Of a DNA stretch of 22,381 nucleotides, positions 5,933-18,571 are shown piece by piece. The DNA lies in NCBI GenBank assembly GCA_002373855.1, contig DFKO01000010.1, positions 1-22,381 on the forward strand, read 5' to 3'. The position numbers and the translations under genes were made by a program. The DNA comes from Lachnospiraceae bacterium UBA3643. GTDB taxonomy: Bacteria; Bacillota; Clostridia; Lachnospirales; Lachnospiraceae. Numbering within the stretch: position 1 is the stretch's first letter; every line of letters begins with the position of its first letter. The notes below the pieces were generated by a model. That model saw only the letters and a program-made list of their open reading frames with translations. It did no database searches and was not told where the DNA came from.

Positions 5933-6994
5933 ATGACGGGTGTATTCGTCAGTTACAGTTCAAAGGATTTGGATATCCTGACACCGATCTTCAGGATGAT
6001 GCATAAAAATAATATACCTTTTTTCAAGGCACCTGAGAGTATACCCCAGGGATCCAATTATGCAAAGGAAATTCCGGGCGCGATCAGAGAGTATAAGGTT
6101 TTTTTGCTGCTTATTTCAGGAGATTCCCAGAGGTCCGCATGGGTCGCCAAGGAAGTCGAGTTTGCCATTAACAGCGGCAGCATGATTGTGCCGGTACAGA
6201 TAACCAGGGTACCCCTTGATAATAAATACAGGCTGTATCTCTCCGATCTTGAGATCATTAAATATTATGAAAATCAAAATGACGGGCTGCGCCAGCTTGA
6301 GATAAAATTAAAAAAGCTGACCGGAAAGGATATATTCACATTTGATGAGGATGTATCAAATGAGACAGAAGAAAATCAGGAAGCTGCCGGTTATCCGGGG
6401 GATGAGTCGGGAGAACTGACCGGCGTCGAAAAAGAGCTTTTAGAACTTAAGAGAAAAAAAGAAAAGAAGATGACGGGCATCATCAAAAACGTCTCGAAGT
6501 CTGAAAAAGGAAAGGTTGCAAACCCGTTTACCGAAACAAAACAGGAGAAAAAAAGGGCTCTGACACCTCACAGGATCCAGGCAAGACGCCAGAATGTCGT
6601 ATCTATGAATCACATCCCAGAGGAGTGTGAATACTGCAAGGGTGAACTCATCATGTGTGGTAAGGGTGCGTATAAATGCGAGGAGTGCGGTAAGATCACC
6701 TACGATTCTTTCCAGAAGATAAAAAACTTTCTGGATGAGCACGGCCCGACATCGGCAGTTGAAGTATCGGCTGAGACGGGACTGCCCAAGGAGATGGTGG
6801 AATATCTTCTCCTTGAGGAACATCTTGAAATACCGAGAACGTCAAGTGTGGTACTTGCCTGTCAGAACTGCGGGGCGGCAATAAGGAGCGGCAGACTGTG
6901 TGATATGTGTAAAAAGAGGGTACAGCTGGTAAAACCCATGGACCCAAAAGAGAAAAATGAGGTCAAATTCAGATACGATTATCAGGATAAATAA
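5933..6994 (+). CDS. TIR-domain protein with two zinc ribbons and a helical (winged-helix-like) segment
   Basis: Residues 1-130 form a TIR domain: it opens with FVSYSSKD, has an internal SAWVAKEVEFAI segment, and E74, four residues after W70, sits where NADase-active bacterial TIR proteins carry the catalytic glutamate. A charged linker (about 140-225) rich in Lys and Glu follows. Then come a C4 zinc ribbon (C232, C235, C249, C252), a helical segment of about 45 residues (260-305) resembling a small winged helix, and a second C4 ribbon (C310, C313, C323, C326). There is no membrane segment, so the protein should be cytosolic. It starts 25 bases after deoC with AGGGGA at 5922-5927, so it probably shares the deo transcript. 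NAD hydrolysis or signalling is inferred from the TIR fold; nucleic-acid binding is inferred from the ribbons. No standard defence partner gene is adjacent. Confidence 0.82.
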   Translation: MTGVFVSYSSKDLDILTPIFRMMHKNNIPFFKAPESIPQGSNYAKEIPGAIREYKVFLLLISGDSQRSAWVAKEVEFAINSGSMIVPVQITRVPLDNKYRLYLSDLEIIKYYENQNDGLRQLEIKLKKLTGKDIFTFDEDVSNETEENQEAAGYPGDESGELTGVEKELLELKRKKEKKMTGIIKNVSKSEKGKVANPFTETKQEKKRALTPHRIQARRQNVVSMNHIPEECEYCKGELIMCGKGAYKCEECGKITYDSFQKIKNFLDEHGPTSAVEVSAETGLPKEMVEYLLLEEHLEIPRTSSVVLACQNCGAAIRSGRLCDMCKKRVQLVKPMDPKEKNEVKFRYDYQDK

Positions 6995-7047: not shown

Positions 7048-7082
7048 TCATAAAGAAATAAATAGTTAAAGAGGAATGAAAA

Positions 7083-8177
7083 ATGGGAAAAAGGATTGGC
7101 AATATCGTCCTTAGAGTACTGATCGTAATACTAGTAACAGTTGTGATGCTTGTCGGAACGCTCTATCTGATGATATTTAAATTCAAGAACGGTCCGTCAG
7201 AATCAGCAAAGAATATGTTTATTACAACGATAATGGAAACGGGACAGCTCAAGTTTGTGGCATCCCTTGTCTGCACACCGGAGGAGATTGCAGAGATAGT
7301 CGGAGCCAATGCCATGCAGGAGATGGAGGCAGATGTCGACACATCACTCATCAGCATGAGCGGTAATACGGCAGAAGCGACAACCGGCGATTTTACAGAG
7401 TCGGAAGTCTTTGATGAAAACGGTATCAGGATGGTGGAGATATCGGGTCGAAGCTTTTTTGCAAAGATGCTGATAGTTAAGGACCCCTCTCAGGTTAAGG
7501 TCGGTACCACGTATAATGGTGGCTGGGGCACATACGGAAAAGAACTTGATGAGATCGTAAGTGATGCCGGAGCGATAGCAGGTATAAACGGCGGAATATA
7601 TGTTTCCACAGGTAATACCGGAGGACAGCCCATGGGAGTAGTCGTTCAGGACGGCCAGATCACATATAACGCTCCCTATGATGCAAACGGTATGTATATG
7701 ATCGGATTTAATAATGAAAATATTCTGATCGTCAAGGATATAAACGGAATGAGTGCATCTGAGTTTTCGGCTTATGTAGAATCTGACGGAATCAGGGATG
7801 CGGTAGCTTTCCAGGATGAGGCATCGGATGCTGACAACCATTTCGTGCCCCTTATCATAAACGGTGAGCCCAGACAACTCGACGGTCAGGGATCGGGAGC
7901 AAACCCGAGAACCGTAATCGGACAGAGATCCGACGGTGCAGTCCTCCTCCTTGTCACAGACGGAAGAGGTACATCGGGACACCTCGGAGCTACTGCATCA
8001 GACCTTATCGGTATCATGCAGGAGTACGGTGCGGTCAATGCGGCAAACCTTGACGGAGGATCGTCTTCAACCATGGTTTATAACGGAAACTGGGAGATGA
8101 CATCAGTTACATTCTATTATCAGAATTCATCATGGAAACTGCCCACTGCATTTGTGGTAATGCCTGCAGGAAATTAA
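7083..8177 (+). CDS. Membrane-anchored phosphodiester glycosidase (NAGPA-family) protein
   Basis: An N-terminal helix (about residues 7-32, after MGKR) serves as a membrane anchor or uncleaved signal, so the remaining 330 residues should be outside the cell. The C-terminal 240 residues show the phosphodiester glycosidase domain (PF09992): AGINGGIY, GVVVQDGQI, NPRTVIGQ, LLVTDGRG and NLDGGSSSTMVYNG, the last being the family's most conserved active-site stretch. Relatives include the mammalian uncovering enzyme and proteins often labelled exopolysaccharide biosynthesis. The likely substrate is a sugar linked through a phosphodiester in the envelope, such as a wall or capsule polymer; that is inference. 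It is the first gene behind the promoter at 7019-7047, with GAGG (7071-7074) 8 bases before the start, and is followed 26 bases later by another envelope protein. Confidence 0.87.
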   Translation: MGKRIGNIVLRVLIVILVTVVMLVGTLYLMIFKFKNGPSESAKNMFITTIMETGQLKFVASLVCTPEEIAEIVGANAMQEMEADVDTSLISMSGNTAEATTGDFTESEVFDENGIRMVEISGRSFFAKMLIVKDPSQVKVGTTYNGGWGTYGKELDEIVSDAGAIAGINGGIYVSTGNTGGQPMGVVVQDGQITYNAPYDANGMYMIGFNNENILIVKDINGMSASEFSAYVESDGIRDAVAFQDEASDADNHFVPLIINGEPRQLDGQGSGANPRTVIGQRSDGAVLLLVTDGRGTSGHLGATASDLIGIMQEYGAVNAANLDGGSSSTMVYNGNWEMTSVTFYYQNSSWKLPTAFVVMPAGN

Positions 8178-8203
8178 TATAAAAGCAATAGGAACTTTAA
8201 GTA

Positions 8204-9625
8204 ATGAACGGACTTAACAATAATGACCTTAATATGGTCGATCTGGACAGAAGAAACGACAGACCGGTAAAGAGAAAGACATCCGGAAACAGTAAGAGCA
8301 AAACTGGAAGTGCCAGGAGATCAACGGGAAGCTCAAGAAGGATAACCGATGAATACGGACACGGAAGGATTCCGGAGAGAAGAAGATCGGCAGATGAGCT
8401 GATGCACGGAGCCATTCCTCCCTCTAAAAAGAAAAAGAGAAAAGGCAAGAGGGGCAAGGCATACAGGAGAGAAAAGAGAAGATGGCAGAGATTCTGGAAG
8501 ATACTTGCCATATATGCGGGAGTACTCCTTATCCTCTCGATAATATTCCTGATCTATACAGACAGCTGTCTGAAAAAATACGAGAAATCCCAGTCGTCAT
8601 ACGCTATGGAAAATTATTTAAAGAAATTCGGCGAGGCGATTGACAGCGGTACGATTCCGGAGGGAATGAGTTTTGCCACAAGCGTGAGCGAGTTTGACAG
8701 TGCTGATATTATGTCATCATCATATCTGTCATACCTTCAGGGCAAGACACTGACTTATGATAAAGCACCCGACAGTTATATGACGGAGGCTCCTGTATAT
8801 CTGATCAAGGCAGACGGAACAGATGTGGCCAGGGTTAAAATGGAGGGTACAAACGGACAGGTGATCCTGGCAATCCTTACTGTACTTGACTGGAATGTTA
8901 CAGAGGTAACTCCCATATTCAGTATGGATACCCATGATTATACGATCACCGTACCTGATAACTATTCAGTAACCGTAAACGGTACACCTCTTTCAGATGC
9001 TTATCTGTCAGGAGAGACTGAGTCAGTAGATATCTTCCAGTATGCGAGAGAGTATGCTGACCTCCATGATATGAAGAAATATGTCATTACCGGAGTGGTG
9101 TCCGATATATCCGTTGCGGTATATGACGGAGACGGCAACCAGGTAGAGTGCAATGTAAACGGATATGACTACAGCGCAGGATACCAGTCGATGGGTGAGA
9201 TTCCGGAAGACTATAAGGAAATGGCACTTACCATGGCTGAGACATGGAGCCTTTTGATGACAAGAGACTTAAGCGGAACCAGCAACGGATTTTACACTCT
9301 TGCAGAGTATCTGATAGAAGGATCATATTACTACAAGATGGCTTATGACTGGGCAACCGGAATAGATATCACATTTACCAGTGCCCATACTCTCGGCAAC
9401 CCCATATTTACAAATATCGTCGTGGATGATTATGTGAAATATACGGACAACTGTTTCTCATGTCATATTTATTTTGACAAAGATATGTACCTGACCAGGA
9501 CAGGAGAGACGGCCTACGATACGACGGATTCCACATTTATATTTGTCTACTACGATGATTCCGATGACGGTGTGGACAATCCCCACTGGGCAATTGCCGA
9601 TATGATAGCGAACACTTCAAACTGA
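8204..9625 (+). CDS. Single-pass membrane protein, basic cytosolic tail and large extracellular region
   Basis: Not recognised by name. Residues 1-97 are very rich in Arg, Lys and Ser and should be cytosolic; they contain two similar short motifs, YGHGRIP (51-57) and LMHGAIP (66-72). A single membrane helix spans about 98-118. Residues 120-473 lie outside: a segment at roughly 245-270 (TITVPDNYSVTVNG) resembles the extracellular repeats of TcaA-type envelope proteins, and the last 130 residues, rich in aromatic beta strands and ending in a PHWAIADMI motif, could be an NTF2-like fold. Both fold ideas are inference. The preceding ribosome site is weak (AGGA, about 11 bases upstream). It sits between the phosphodiester glycosidase gene and an unknown gene, probably in one operon, pointing to a role in the cell envelope. 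Confidence 0.8.
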   Translation: MNGLNNNDLNMVDLDRRNDRPVKRKTSGNSKSKTGSARRSTGSSRRITDEYGHGRIPERRRSADELMHGAIPPSKKKKRKGKRGKAYRREKRRWQRFWKILAIYAGVLLILSIIFLIYTDSCLKKYEKSQSSYAMENYLKKFGEAIDSGTIPEGMSFATSVSEFDSADIMSSSYLSYLQGKTLTYDKAPDSYMTEAPVYLIKADGTDVARVKMEGTNGQVILAILTVLDWNVTEVTPIFSMDTHDYTITVPDNYSVTVNGTPLSDAYLSGETESVDIFQYAREYADLHDMKKYVITGVVSDISVAVYDGDGNQVECNVNGYDYSAGYQSMGEIPEDYKEMALTMAETWSLLMTRDLSGTSNGFYTLAEYLIEGSYYYKMAYDWATGIDITFTSAHTLGNPIFTNIVVDDYVKYTDNCFSCHIYFDKDMYLTRTGETAYDTTDSTFIFVYYDDSDDGVDNPHWAIADMIANTSN

Positions 9626-10439: not shown

Positions 10440-13202
10440 ATGAATATTGAAAAAGTGATACTTGATTGGAATGAATATATCGAAGCTGCCAGATCGGTTG
10501 TCAGCGAAGGATGTGTTCTTCTTGAAAATAATGGGACACTGCCGCTTGAAAAAGGGGCAGTTGTTTCGATTTTCGGGCGCATACAGACCCATTATTACAA
10601 GAGTGGTACAGGATCGGGAGGTATGGTCAACGTAACCCATGTAGTGGGTATTCCCGAGGGTCTTAAGCAAAGTGGTCATGTCACCGTAAATGAAGACCTC
10701 GAAAACATCTACAAAAAATGGGAAGAGGAAAATCCTTTTGATGAAGGTCTTGGATGGGGTACTGAGCCCTGGTCCCAGCCTGAGATGGAACTGACGGATG
10801 ATATAGTTTCAGAAGCATCATCAAAATCTGATGTGGCAATCGTTATCATAGGCAGAACTGCAGGGGAGGATAAAGACTTCTCTGATGTGGCAGGTGCGTA
10901 CAAGCTGTCTGATGCAGAGGAGGATATGCTCCGCAGAGTCAGAAAACATTTTGGCAAAATGGTTGTCCTCTTAAATGTTGGATCCCTTATGGATCTGAAT
11001 ACGATAAACGATATCGGACCTGATGCCCTTATGGTTGTGTGGCAGGGCGGCATGATCGGAGGACTCGGTACTGCAGATGTCCTTACAGGAAAGGTAAATC
11101 CTTCGGGAAAGCTTACGGATACAATAGCATACGAGATAACAGATTATCCCTCAACAGAAAACTTTGGAGATCCTGTTAAGGATTATTATGCGGAAGATAT
11201 CTATGTAGGATACAGATACTTTGAGACTTTTGACAAATCAAAAGTCAGATATCCGTTCGGATATGGCAAATCATACACAGAGTTTGAACATACAAAAGGT
11301 GAGTTTACCGTTAATGTAAACGAGCGGACTCTCACGGTATCATGCACTGTAAAAAATACAGGTACTGTTGCCGGCAAGGATGTTGCCCAGTTTTATGTAT
11401 CTGCACCCCAGGGGTTGCTCGGCAAACCTGAAAAAGTTTTGGTGGCATATAAAAAGACAGGCATGCTGGCACCCGAAAAAGAAGAGAAAATCACGGTGAC
11501 GATTCCCTTTGACAGATTTGCTTCTTTTGATGATACGGGAGTCACAGGATACGAGAGCTGCTTTGTACTTGAGGCAGGAAAGTATACAGTATATGAAGGT
11601 AAAAATGTAAGGGATACATATATCGAAGGCTCTTTTGATTTAGATGATAATATCCTGATCGAAAAGCTCTCAAAAGCTCTTGCACCAATGGAGAGCTTTA
11701 AGAGAATGAAGGCCTTTGAAAATACAGACGGAACATTATCCGTAAAATATGAGGATGTACCTGTATCTGATATTGATGAAAAAAAGAGACGCATCGATAA
11801 TATGCCGGCAGAGATCCCTCAGGATTTTACAGCGAGATATTCTTTAAAAGATGTTCTCTCACGAAGCATAGATATGGAGCAGTTTATAGCAAGACTCTCC
11901 GATGACGATCTGGCATGTATAGTCAGAGGCGAGGGTATGGGATCAAGCCTTGTGACTGCAGGTACAGCAGCTGCTTTTGGAGGAGTGTCCGATTATTTAA
12001 GAAAGATGGATATCCCTGCGGTCTGCTGTGATGACGGTCCGTCAGGTATGCGACTTGACTCGGGAGCAACAGCTTTCAGCATGCCAAACGGAACCATGCT
12101 TGCCAGCACGTTTAACCCGGATATCATAGAGAGGATGTACGCTTTTACATCTCTTGAGATGATATATAACAGGGTTGAGTGCCTTTTGGGGCCGGGAATG
12201 AATATCCACAGAAATCCCCTTAACGGCAGAAACTTTGAGTATTTTTCGGAAGACCCGTATCTGAACGGAACAATAGCCTCCGCCATGCTTAAAGGTCTCC
12301 ATAAATACGGCTCTGACGGCGTGGCAAAGCATTTTTGCTGCAACAATCAGGAGCTTGGCAGACAGGCATGTGACAGTGTGGTATCCGAAAGAGCTCTCCG
12401 TGAGATATACCTTAAGGGATTTGAGATTGCCGTAAAAGAGGGCGGATGCAAAGCCTTTATGACCACATATGCCCAGGTAAACGGTATGTGGACTGCCGGT
12501 AATTATGATTTAAATACCAGGATCCTTAGGGATGAATGGGGCTTTAAGGGTATAGTGATGACTGACTGGTGGGCCCAGGTCAACGACCGTGGCGGTGAGC
12601 CATCGAAAAACAATACGGCAGCAATGGTCAGAGCCCAGAACGATCTGTATATGGTTACGGCAAATGCGGCAATGAATTCTGCCGGTGACAATACACTGGC
12701 CCAGTTAAGTGAAGGAAAATTAAACAGGGCAGAACTGCAGCGGTGTGCCATGAACATCTGTGAGTATGCCATGAATACCATGGCCATGAAGAGGCTCTGC
12801 CATAATGATATTAAGGTTGAGATAGCGGGCAGAGTCATTGAGGAGGACGCTTTCGATATCGAAAATGCTGAATATCTCGTATTAAAGGGCAATATAACAG
12901 TGAGCCTTAAAGACAAGGAATCAAAGGCCGGAACAAACTACTATATACCCCTTGATATTCAAGACCTTGGTATGTACGATATCTCGGTTACCGCATCCTC
13001 TATGCTCGGAGAGGTAGCCCAGCTTCCCTGCACCCTGTATTACACAGGTGTACCGTTCCTTACATACACATTTAACGGAACCGGAGGAAAAGAAGTGACC
13101 ATAACAAAATCCATGGATTTCCATAACAGGATGGCGGTCATCAGACTGAATGTGGCTAAGAACGGTCTTGACCTCGACAGGATAGAATTTAAAAAACAGT
13201 AA
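10440..13202 (+). CDS. Glycoside hydrolase family 3 beta-glucosidase, domain-permuted
   Basis: This is a cytosolic GH3 enzyme (no signal peptide), 920 residues, with its domains in reversed order. The segment normally C-terminal comes first: SEGCVLLENNGTLPL (22-36), then IIGRTAGEDKDFS, where E143 is the probable acid/base. The fibronectin-III-like domain follows from about 280 (PFGYGKSYTEFE) to about 390. The TIM barrel, normally N-terminal, comes last (about 490-770), with GPGMNIHRNPLNGRNFEYFSED split over the substrate-binding region, KHFCCNN, and the nucleophile D709 in GIVMTDWW. The final 130 residues form an extra beta-rich domain. The same permutation is known for Butyrivibrio fibrisolvens and Ruminococcus albus beta-glucosidases. 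With the GH31 enzyme downstream it could degrade xyloglucan oligosaccharides after uptake. AAAGGA lies about 9 bases before the ATG. Confidence 0.92.
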   Translation: MNIEKVILDWNEYIEAARSVVSEGCVLLENNGTLPLEKGAVVSIFGRIQTHYYKSGTGSGGMVNVTHVVGIPEGLKQSGHVTVNEDLENIYKKWEEENPFDEGLGWGTEPWSQPEMELTDDIVSEASSKSDVAIVIIGRTAGEDKDFSDVAGAYKLSDAEEDMLRRVRKHFGKMVVLLNVGSLMDLNTINDIGPDALMVVWQGGMIGGLGTADVLTGKVNPSGKLTDTIAYEITDYPSTENFGDPVKDYYAEDIYVGYRYFETFDKSKVRYPFGYGKSYTEFEHTKGEFTVNVNERTLTVSCTVKNTGTVAGKDVAQFYVSAPQGLLGKPEKVLVAYKKTGMLAPEKEEKITVTIPFDRFASFDDTGVTGYESCFVLEAGKYTVYEGKNVRDTYIEGSFDLDDNILIEKLSKALAPMESFKRMKAFENTDGTLSVKYEDVPVSDIDEKKRRIDNMPAEIPQDFTARYSLKDVLSRSIDMEQFIARLSDDDLACIVRGEGMGSSLVTAGTAAAFGGVSDYLRKMDIPAVCCDDGPSGMRLDSGATAFSMPNGTMLASTFNPDIIERMYAFTSLEMIYNRVECLLGPGMNIHRNPLNGRNFEYFSEDPYLNGTIASAMLKGLHKYGSDGVAKHFCCNNQELGRQACDSVVSERALREIYLKGFEIAVKEGGCKAFMTTYAQVNGMWTAGNYDLNTRILRDEWGFKGIVMTDWWAQVNDRGGEPSKNNTAAMVRAQNDLYMVTANAAMNSAGDNTLAQLSEGKLNRAELQRCAMNICEYAMNTMAMKRLCHNDIKVEIAGRVIEEDAFDIENAEYLVLKGNITVSLKDKESKAGTNYYIPLDIQDLGMYDISVTASSMLGEVAQLPCTLYYTGVPFLTYTFNGTGGKEVTITKSMDFHNRMAVIRLNVAKNGLDLDRIEFKKQ

Positions 13203-16443: not shown

Positions 16444-16899
16444 ATGAAAAAATTTTTAGAGGAGTTCAAACAGTTTGCGCTTAAAGGTAATGTGATGGAT
16501 CTGGCAGTCGGTGTCATCATCGGTGCTGCATTCCAGAATATCGTGACAGCTCTTACAGCTGACTTTATCACACCCCTTATCGCAGCTGTGACAGGCAGCA
16601 CCGCAGAGGACGGCACAGTTTCAATCGGTGGTACATTTACGATTAACGGTGCGGTGTTTAATTACGGAGACTTTATCTCTTCGATCATCAACTTTTTGAT
16701 AATGGCATTTATTCTCTTCCTCATCATCAAGGCTGTGAATAAGCTTATGAATGTAGGAAAGAAGAAGCAGGCTCCCGGAGCACCTACAACAAAGGTATGT
16801 CCTTTCTGCAAGAGTACTATCGATATCGAGGCAACAAAATGTCCTCACTGTACATCTGACCTTCCCGCAAAAGAGGAAGAAGAAAAAGCAAAGGCCTGA
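16444..16899 (+). CDS. mscL: Large-conductance mechanosensitive channel with C-terminal zinc ribbon
   Basis: MscL opens under membrane tension to release solutes on hypo-osmotic shock. The family N-terminus is clear (FLEEFKQFALKGNVMDLAVG), with the first helix at about 17-45 and the second at about 75-100 (FISSIINFLIMAFILFLII), joined by a Gly/Thr-rich extracellular loop. After the usual end of the protein, residues 117-140 add a C4 zinc ribbon (C119, C122, C133, C136; CPFC and CPHC) and an acidic Glu/Lys tail. The ribbon replaces the helical bundle seen in E. coli MscL; such ribbon-tailed forms occur in other Firmicutes. It would face the cytosol. The gene is followed by 210 bases before the next coding start, with no convincing terminator. 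Confidence 0.95.
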   Translation: MKKFLEEFKQFALKGNVMDLAVGVIIGAAFQNIVTALTADFITPLIAAVTGSTAEDGTVSIGGTFTINGAVFNYGDFISSIINFLIMAFILFLIIKAVNKLMNVGKKKQAPGAPTTKVCPFCKSTIDIEATKCPHCTSDLPAKEEEEKAKA

Positions 16900-17025
16900 A
16901 ACACTCAAATATCAAACACTATATTTAGCGTTTATGATATAAGCCTTTAAACATAAGGGTTGCGGCAGGGTTTCAACAACAACTTGTGTCTCTGAAAAAA
17001 TAAAACACAAAATATACGAAAAGGT

Positions 17026-17054
17026 ATACCATTTTTTTTCAAAATGTGTATAAT
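17026..17054 (+). promoter_or_regulatory. Promoter for the PolC-like small gene
   Basis: A perfect TATAAT lies at 17049-17054, preceded at 17 bases by a weak -35 (ATACCA, 17026-17031). Transcription would start near 17061, inside the apparent coding frame that opens at ATG 17044, so that ATG cannot be the start on this transcript. This supports the GTG start at 17110. The stretch upstream (16900-17025) holds no gene that I can see. Confidence 0.55.
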
Positions 17055-17061
17055 GAAAAAG

Positions 17062-17103
17062 GTGGCCTTAAACCACAAGATATTGTGGGTCACTGTAGGG
17101 GAG
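17062..17103 (+). promoter_or_regulatory. Leader with alternative small hairpins and ribosome site
   Basis: In the predicted leader, GTGG (17062-17065) can pair with CCAC (17073-17076), or CCACAA (17073-17078) can pair with TTGTGG (17083-17088) around the loop GATA. The two hairpins exclude each other. The ribosome site GGGGAG (17098-17103) follows, 6 bases before GTG. The pairings are exact but short; regulatory meaning is a guess. Confidence 0.3.
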
Positions 17104-17109
17104 AATTTT

Positions 17110-17685
17110 GTGAGAAACAGAGGCTATAAGTTCATTATAAATGAAAATGAAACGGGCTACTGGATATTGTGCATTAACGCAACATGGATCAATCATCTGC
17201 TTAGGGACAGAGGGATTGAGCCGAGAAATTTCAGGGCGTTAAACTGGCGTGATATCGCAGCCGCCGCACCGTCTGAAAAGCTTAGGAAGCTGGTAGTCGC
17301 ATTAAAGCCGGCTAACTTCTGGCAGATGTGTGATGTGATAGCATTGTCGGAATCGGAATATGATGATGACAATATGCCAATCTACAGACAGAGATGGTTT
17401 ACCAGATATCCCATTTTTACTGTGGAGGATGTATACGAACTGTTACTTGAGAACGGCTTTAATCAGGAAGATGCACTCCGTGTCACAATGGTGGTCAGGA
17501 GAGGAGAGGAATCTCTTGACGGAGTATCGCTCCGGGATTTCCTTGAACTCTATGATGTACCGGAAGATTTAGAGAGAGTGATCTTAAGGTGCAATAGCCT
17601 TGTATCAAGACATTATGTGATAGACAGGCTCACACATATGGCTTGTCAGCTCCTCAGTACAACCAGGAAAGCTAAAGAAGATTAA
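17110..17685 (+). CDS. Stand-alone protein resembling the helical region near the C-terminus of PolC (no catalytic core)
   Basis: The start is set at GTG 17110 (191 residues) because GGGGAG lies 6 bases upstream and the promoter -10 box overlaps the longer frame's ATG. Residues from about 65 on follow, in order, the remembered pattern of Gram-positive DNA polymerase III PolC after its palm: KPANFWQMCDVIALS parallels RPKTFSELVQISGLS; EDVYELLLENGF with LRVTMVVRRGEE parallels DDIMVYLIYRGLEP with KIMESVRKGKG; YDVPEDLERVILRCNSL parallels HDVPEWYIDSCKKIKYM; and VSRHYVIDRLTHMACQL occupies the position of PKAHAAAYVLMAVRIA. The catalytic aspartates of the palm and the HAAAY segment are absent, so it cannot polymerise DNA. 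It might be a replisome-interacting factor or a diverged fragment. It is monocistronic, with its own promoter and terminator. Residues 1-60 are unrecognised. Homology is by eye. Confidence 0.65.
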   Translation: MRNRGYKFIINENETGYWILCINATWINHLLRDRGIEPRNFRALNWRDIAAAAPSEKLRKLVVALKPANFWQMCDVIALSESEYDDDNMPIYRQRWFTRYPIFTVEDVYELLLENGFNQEDALRVTMVVRRGEESLDGVSLRDFLELYDVPEDLERVILRCNSLVSRHYVIDRLTHMACQLLSTTRKAKED

Positions 17686-17710
17686 TTAATCAGATTAATC
17701 TTTCTATATG

Positions 17711-17751
17711 AAAAAAAGACATTCGGCAGGGAGGGCTGAACGTCTTTTTTT
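17711..17751. terminator. Bidirectional Rho-independent terminator between convergent genes
   Basis: A 17-base arm (17711-17727) starting with seven A and a 17-base arm (17735-17751) ending with seven T pair around a 7-base loop, with one A-C mismatch and one G-U pair. The A run on one side and T run on the other let it work in both directions, ending the gene at 17110 and the minus-strand gene at 17777. Confidence 0.88.
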
Positions 17752-17776
17752 CTTTATGATTTTAGTCAGGAGACAT

Positions 17777-18571
17777 TTATTTTATTGACACTGATTCGCC
17801 GGGATTGATCTTTATGATCTGATTATTGTTTTCTACATATACGGGGATGCCATAGCGGTTGTATAAGGCAGAACCGTCGAGGGTGACCGTCAGGTTTCTT
17901 GCGGCAGTCAGATAATCCTTTATCTCGATATTGGTAGCATACCAGACATCATCTTTTCCGGATAATCCTTTCAGGAGATTTTCCATGTATTCCCATGTGT
18001 TGTCCCTGTCAAATTCATAGCTGTGTCCCCAGATATAAAAAAGCTTTATACGGACATGGTCATCTTTTTCAAAAAACTTACCGACAAGTTTTTCAGCCTC
18101 CGACTGGTGACATGTGGGATGCCATTTCATGAAATCTCCGGGAAGTGTAAAGCCATAGGTGGACTGTACTGTCCTTGAATATTCAAGCCCGGAAAAAACA
18201 GCGGCGTCAATGAACTTATCAAAGTATTCGCCGTACGGATACGAGAGACCCCGGACTGGATAACCGGAGAGTGATTCAAGGCAGCGCCTGTCATCATAAA
18301 GCTCGGATATCATCTGCCGGTCTGTGAGCGATGAAGGAAAGGGATGAGAAACCGTATGACATGATATTTCATGACCTTTATACAGGGATTTTACTTCTTC
18401 TGCCGATATATAATCTTCCCTTCCGAATTTACCTGAGTTTAAGTGAAAAGTCGCTTTGACATTATATTTATTAAAAAGATTTACAAGTTGTCTGTCCTGA
18501 ATCTTTCCGTCATCGAAACTGAATGTGACGGCCCTGCTTTTTCCATTCGGAAATCTGATTTCGAAGCCCAT
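17777..18571 (-). CDS. Polysaccharide deacetylase (NodB / CE4) family protein without signal peptide
   Basis: This 264-residue protein has the NodB fold. Motif 1 is TFSFDDG, with the putative base D20 and metal ligand D21; motif 2 is SCHTVSH, with metal ligands H72 and H76; LSYPYGEY corresponds to the third motif region and YIWGHSYEFD to a later conserved histidine segment. The last 45 residues are beta-rich and resemble a small substrate-side module. CE4 enzymes remove N- or O-acetyl groups from chitin, peptidoglycan or xylan oligosaccharides. Here there is neither signal peptide nor membrane helix, so the enzyme appears cytosolic and may act on imported oligosaccharides; that is inference. 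On its strand AAGGAG (18579-18584 in plus coordinates) lies 7 bases before the ATG. It converges on the PolC-like gene and diverges from the transporter. Confidence 0.87.
   Translation of the reverse strand: MGFEIRFPNGKSRAVTFSFDDGKIQDRQLVNLFNKYNVKATFHLNSGKFGREDYISAEEVKSLYKGHEISCHTVSHPFPSSLTDRQMISELYDDRRCLESLSGYPVRGLSYPYGEYFDKFIDAAVFSGLEYSRTVQSTYGFTLPGDFMKWHPTCHQSEAEKLVGKFFEKDDHVRIKLFYIWGHSYEFDRDNTWEYMENLLKGLSGKDDVWYATNIEIKDYLTAARNLTVTLDGSALYNRYGIPVYVENNNQIIKINPGESVSIK

Follow-up and report, generated by a model that had tools for sequence, protein, structure and literature searches.

In DNA polymerases of the C family the catalytic aspartates are described as absolutely conserved, and fragments without an intact active site were removed in the survey that reports this, as far as its consulted sections go (PMC3919608). 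A second polymerase survey discarded fragments shorter than 200 residues, according to the portion of it seen (PMC12926913). The protein described here has 191 residues and no active site, and would therefore be dropped by the filters of both as they stand in those sections. ImuB and other inactive Y-family polymerases are described in consulted sections of the two papers (PMC12926913, PMC3919608); those of the former discuss inactive polymerases of the Y and X families and inactivated exonuclease domains, and no inactive PolC. ImuB, as portrayed there, resembles the present protein in being related to polymerases, inactive in catalysis and kept as a protein of its own. However, it belongs to another polymerase family and to the DnaE2 cassette, and the present protein has no such cassette. 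The clostridial system with both PolC and DnaE1 is called experimentally uncharacterised in the consulted part of PMC3919608. The original prediction knew of no described family of this architecture, and we likewise found none in the open-licence papers of PubMed Central.

The gene lies at 17110..17685 on the forward strand of the window, as we call the whole stretch of 22,381 nucleotides analysed, and is defined by a profile match, a fold match, orthologues and dN/dS. It is a solitary gene, with mscL (16444-16899) on one side and, on the other, a polysaccharide deacetylase gene on the minus strand (17777-18571) that converges on it. The signals for which it had been called maintained were all located on the forward strand: an extended -10 promoter element TGTGTATAAT at 17045-17054, whose core TGTATAAT is present upstream in 30 of 30 orthologue loci; a ribosome binding site GGGGAG, read in the sequence at 17098-17103; and an intrinsic terminator hairpin with a U run at 17710-17752 (-18.9 kcal/mol, z -7.9, none of 200 shuffles equal). 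An in-frame ATG at 17044 precedes the -10 element and should therefore be absent from the transcript, so that the GTG at 17110 is the likely start. GTG is also the start codon in 29 of the 30 orthologues compared, the remaining one (L124) having TTG. The leader shows no unusual folding stability (z -0.67; 52 of 200 shuffles as stable), and an Rfam scan of the window matched no RNA element. Elsewhere in the window, the MscL protein encoded at 16444-16899 (+) carries a C-terminal CPFC..CPHC tail that is zinc-ribbon-like, the protein at 5933-6991 (+) has a TIR domain at its N-terminus (TIR_2, E 8.8e-14; also ThsB_TIR), and the glycosyl hydrolase family 3 protein at 10440-13202 (+) has its C-terminal domain preceding the N-terminal domain.

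As a single sequence the protein finds no PolC match in Pfam, NCBIfam or the PDB, so that a family profile or the fold is needed to see the likeness. Four of its blocks align to PolC in preserved order, collinear over about 120 residues: KPANFW..IALS with KPTHFS..GLS, EDVYELLLENGF..RVTMVVRRGE with RDDIMTYLIQMGL..SIMENVRKGK, YDVPEDLERVILRCNSL with HNVPDWYVWSCERIEYM, and a helix at the HAAAY position. A profile match to PolC, on which the original prediction had been staked beforehand, was found: hhalign of the family against the PolC alignment gave a score of 52.0 (probability 89.8), whereas the highest-scoring of 100 column shuffles reached 24.1 and the reversed alignment 14.0. On the PolC structure 3f2b the family profile reached an E of only 0.12, with profile positions 56-181 on chain 747-872. 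The predicted fold proved superposable on the same structure, model residues 1-190 lying on chain 931-1296; the structural tool reports the ends of ranges only, and the joint alignment is unreliable over the first ~25 residues. Foldseek against C-family polymerases gave E of only 6e-3 to 9e-2 with probability 0.98-1.00, and the ten best rows of VIA-align, limited to chains already ranked by Foldseek, are all C-family polymerases. The protein had been assigned to the PolC region after the palm; the four ordered blocks agree with this, whereas the structural match begins earlier, since it takes in the model from its first residue. The 191-aa family descends from PolC, and its likeness to PolC (PDB 3F2B, 9QPC) consists of this fold and the collinear blocks, although PolC has about 1,440 aa. 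Two PDB matches at E 7e-7 and 1e-5 were rejected as summed weak matches to designed repeat proteins, and Pfam matches of individual family members (E 0.008-0.5) were mutually inconsistent and not accepted. A weak match to phrog_24852 covers residues 93-146 (E 0.0072).

What has been lost is as regular as what has been kept. The columns of the three catalytic aspartates are gaps in all 33 rows of the family alignment (A1, the window protein with 32 of 71 homologues) and D in all 27 rows of the PolC alignment (A3, the genome's own PolC with 26 of 29 other PolC loci, L060, L065 and L069 being omitted). The SHGTDVW and FPKAHAAAY motifs of PolC are replaced by other or variable residues, and the RKG motif is kept in part only; the catalytic core and HAAAY are thus missing as first read. 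Pfam assigned no family to the window protein, and PHP is absent from the 19 families listed for 33 members. The C-terminal part of PolC, with its clamp-binding tail, is missing too, and no clamp-like motif turned up when the window protein was scanned with regular expressions. PolC therefore differs in having PHP, exonuclease, zinc-binding and clamp-binding parts as well as the catalytic positions, all absent here. In their place the family has invariants of its own, identical in 33 of 33 rows: residues P38, P67, F70, W71, M73, D75, Y84, F97, P101, E106, D107, Y109, E110, A122, L147, D149 and R167, besides a nearly invariant RNRGY start. Its members have 191-201 aa in 30 loci (overall range 187-202) and are mildly acidic (median pI 5.3, net charge -4). 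The best explanation is a PolC duplicate reduced to a palm-like hairpin and the helices of the fingers, and the retained fold together with the new invariants suggests a new binding role.

Orthologues, in place of a strain-specific remnant, were found in 33 of the 35 genomes of the window's genus and in 23 of 23 genomes of good quality; the two genomes without one are 88% and 72% complete. The 34 matches listed contain no internal stop, and dN/dS was 0.013-0.079 (Nei-Gojobori) in 24 pairs at least 87.8% identical, the more divergent pairs reaching 0.19 or being saturated. Between the window gene and its nearest relative dN is 0.004 and dS 0.33. The family is under purifying selection, and the gene is maintained rather than decaying, as had been supposed. 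It also occurs in genomes with a full-length polC, the setting in which orthologues were to be surveyed: 31 of the 35 genomes of the genus have a PolC ORF that reaches 1,100 aa or more, and the window's own genome has both PolC and DnaE. Every 30-locus count in this work excludes L147, a 46-residue match at a contig end. The neighbours read in the 30 loci point to no replication partner; GalE-like (18/30) and DegV-like (19/30) clusters, named by reading, often adjoin the gene and are absent from the window's own lineage. Records with the family that carry a name belong to Lachnospiraceae, and rumen samples are the source of many.

Of 297 genomes sampled from the taxonomic family outside the genus, 5 match at E ≤0.01, all weakly. 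The match in G244 (L038) is, by reading, an unrelated CBS-type membrane protein, and the other four are themselves PolC derivatives. Searching with one of these derivatives yielded 35 clusters, here called type A, whose proteins have 428-465 aa; 25 of the clusters carry the label PF07733. None of the 35 type A rows keeps Asp1 or Asp3, and at Asp2 26 rows have D and 9 have E. The type A profile matches PolC at E 2.8e-47 and the window family at E 2.8e-22 (probability 99.5; score 158.9 against 24.7 for the best of 100 shuffles). Type A, found in other Lachnospiraceae, shares with the window family its stand-alone form, the loss of Asp1 and Asp3 and an F..YP motif before an ED motif; unlike the window family, which has no counterpart columns, it keeps the N-terminal half of the palm together with the cysteines that bind zinc. 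Matches of a type A protein were found in 22 phage and 17 plasmid records; identity stays below 33% in every row listed, and several of the plasmid rows are annotated as PolC-type polymerase. A tree of the fingers segment separates PolC and ten other odd PolC-like ORFs from both the window family and type A (100/98); each of the latter two forms a clade of its own, with support of 100/100 for the window family and 94/90 for type A. This tree has 134 columns, an unsettled bootstrap and long branches, so that the grouping of the window family with type A may owe something to long-branch attraction. The ten odd ORFs have 334-925 aa, nine being in the genus and one in the family; all three aspartates are kept in three of them (L106, L109, L110) and not in the other seven.

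NrdR is a dATP-responsive repressor of ribonucleotide reductase genes. Between promoter and gene, the palindrome CCACAAGATATTGTGG at 17073-17088, 26 bp past the start of TGTATAAT, resembles what we take to be the NrdR box. At the nrdD-type loci of the genus, of which 26 of 30 were scanned (L154, L160, L172 and L173 omitted), at least one box is found in 23 and a pair exactly 32 bp apart in 12. On a matrix built from 22 of these boxes the window box scores 22.1, within the range of the nrdD boxes (15.3-23.5); it is identical to the boxes before two nrdD genes (L148, L166) and is the sole site above 13 in the window. On the same matrix the upstream regions of the orthologues score at least 9 in 30 of 30 and at least 11 in 25 of 30, whereas background reaches 11 at 6 of 317,293 positions, and of 532 random 300-nt stretches, 2 hold a site of at least 11 and 10 a site of at least 9. 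When the matrix was permuted 300 times with its palindrome preserved, 0.8 of the 30 regions reached 11 on average, and one permutation gave the maximum of 15. The palindrome, at a score of at least 9 in all 30 orthologue upstream regions examined, is new here. In contrast to the window family, the four type A loci read showed no nrdD-like box close to the gene.

The arrangement of the boxes has features of its own. A box scoring at least 7 follows TGTATAAT in 24 of 30 loci, by 24-26 bp in four and by 34-37 bp in twenty, two classes that differ by about one helical turn; in L121, L123, L125 and L126 the sole box lies 74 bp upstream of the promoter. In vitro, the strongest NrdR binding is seen with spacers of 14-17 or 24-27 bp between boxes, according to the part of PMC12051234 seen. 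At the promoters of the present family no second box occurs at 31-33 or 41-43 bp, the two spacings favoured in those binding experiments, and the 32-bp pair was searched for and is absent. Instead of the 32 bp of nrdD, the distance to a second box, farther upstream, is about 177-179 bp in 16 of the 30 loci, many of these being closely related and so not independent. The window has weaker sites of uncertain function at 16974-16989 (score 10.6) and 16916-16931 (score 10.8), 99 and 157 bp from the strong box, respectively. Boxes in 30 of 30 upstream regions and identity to two nrdD boxes make the gene look NrdR-regulated, and on this comparison of sites it looks like a member of the ribonucleotide reductase regulon despite the absent close pair and although it is no reductase gene. 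NrdR would then bind at the putative operator of the family. Of 13 genomes, 11 were found to have the gene nrdR; it was detected neither in G012 nor in the window's own genome, which is 67% complete.

On the opposing side, exact matches to the box pattern in eight genomes exceed a reversed control modestly in most and not in G024, and the pattern precedes the family's gene in only two of the eight (G014, G023). In 21 of these exact-pattern loci, a part of all such sites, reading found a reductase-like gene following in 8 and a gyrB-like gene in one, the rest being unclear or chance. Box-like sites were seen before a gyrB-like gene (L207 ~1500, G028:C8:37741) and, in two genomes, before a small FtsB/DivIC-like ORF (L189 and L203 ~1500), all named by reading. 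Going by these sites, the regulon may extend past the reductases.

The operator that the gene has in common with the nrdD promoters, overlooked by the original prediction, is the best clue to the function of the protein. Since co-control with ribonucleotide reductase seems likely, the protein may regulate DNA replication. A protein of PolC ancestry, devoid of catalytic positions, held by purifying selection and preceded by an operator shared with nrdD can tentatively be read, with a little under an even chance, as a pseudo-polymerase transcribed alone from an NrdR-type operator and tuning replication to dNTP status. A PolC duplicate would have been trimmed to a non-catalytic form with a conserved promoter and the NrdR-box-like operator. 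At low dNTPs the protein would be made together with ribonucleotide reductase; it would then bind a replication partner, whether PolC, DnaE or the primer end held by PolC, and restrain or protect stalled synthesis until dNTPs recover. Its action at the fork, its replication target and the direction of its effect are what we infer from this setting. The decoy role proposed at the outset did not find support. A clamp decoy is disfavoured because the clamp-binding tail is missing, and a plain DNA-binding decoy is weakly disfavoured because the family is acidic. If confirmed, tuning of replication by this protein would provide a C-family pseudo-polymerase core to a genus, would link NrdR genetically to a protein related to PolC, and would give a handle on the matching of replication to dNTP supply in clostridia with PolC and DnaE1.

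The same operator could serve a protein working away from the fork, on nucleotide supply: derived from PolC, it would act as a scaffold and bind either ribonucleotide reductase or a different enzyme of the dNTP pool. Loss of the nucleotide-handling motifs of the fingers and the acidity of the family would suit such a scaffold; nevertheless, reading of the 30 loci found no nrd gene adjoining, and we know of no precedent for a polymerase fold binding ribonucleotide reductase, which leaves this explanation unlikely. The palindrome might, alternatively, belong to another regulator or be part of the family's control only, the protein serving a chromosome process unrelated to dNTPs. This is improbable to a similar degree: the lack of a canonical close pair, an nrdR undetected in the incomplete own genome and the four loci with a sole box upstream of the promoter speak for it, but the window box recurs unchanged before two nrdD genes, and the 32-bp pairs that are the NrdR signature are present at 12 of the 26 nrdD loci scanned.

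WYL/HTH-type regulators and AAA proteins are a setting known from some defence loci, and such genes adjoin further odd PolC derivatives found in the genus and in the family. A decoy or sensor against phages or mobile elements that use PolC-like replication is nonetheless quite improbable, as the window family is nearly universal in its genus without such neighbours, has no relative in phage and plasmid records, and gave no match at E ≤0.001 in a viral fold search (best probability 0.54). Decay after a PolC duplication might be suspected from the PolC-like ORFs of intermediate length in Lachnospiraceae and from an internal stop in one type A copy (G265). The absence of stops among the 34 matches listed and the low dN/dS speak strongly against a pseudogene, as do, in their measure, the conserved promoter core and start codon, and this origin has very little probability.

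The reading as a replication-tuning pseudo-polymerase can be widened into a scheme that we consider speculative and rather doubtful as a whole: Lachnospiraceae would repeatedly have turned PolC duplicates into non-catalytic pseudo-polymerases, with the 191-aa family as the core NrdR-controlled fork regulator coupling replication to dNTP supply, and with paired operators, some 17 DNA turns from each other, that may close a repression loop in many members.

Several other PolC derivatives were met in these genomes. The PolC-like ORFs at L106:1927-3756, L109:613-3390 and L110:2535-4622 (G009, G001 and G010; 609-925 aa) have PHP, palm and finger domains, one also an exonuclease, and stop after the HAAAY region; an HTH-type ORF of 202-230 aa lies near each, and they are possibly active short PolC paralogues. 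A 465-aa derivative at L107:1093-4939 (G009) lies between an AAA/M41-type protein and a WYL-domain regulator. Type A genes were met at L210:5398-7853, L211:3331-5789 and L212 ~7057-9416, the last being the G265 copy interrupted by a stop; of the four type A loci read, three have the gene in divergent orientation to a regulator-like ORF, and Pfam support for WYL/HTH is weak and found in L211 only. A third set of derivatives (L112:2847-3872, L113:3940-4953 and L115:497-1501), of 334-341 aa and without the zinc-binding part, has two of its three members in the window's genus.
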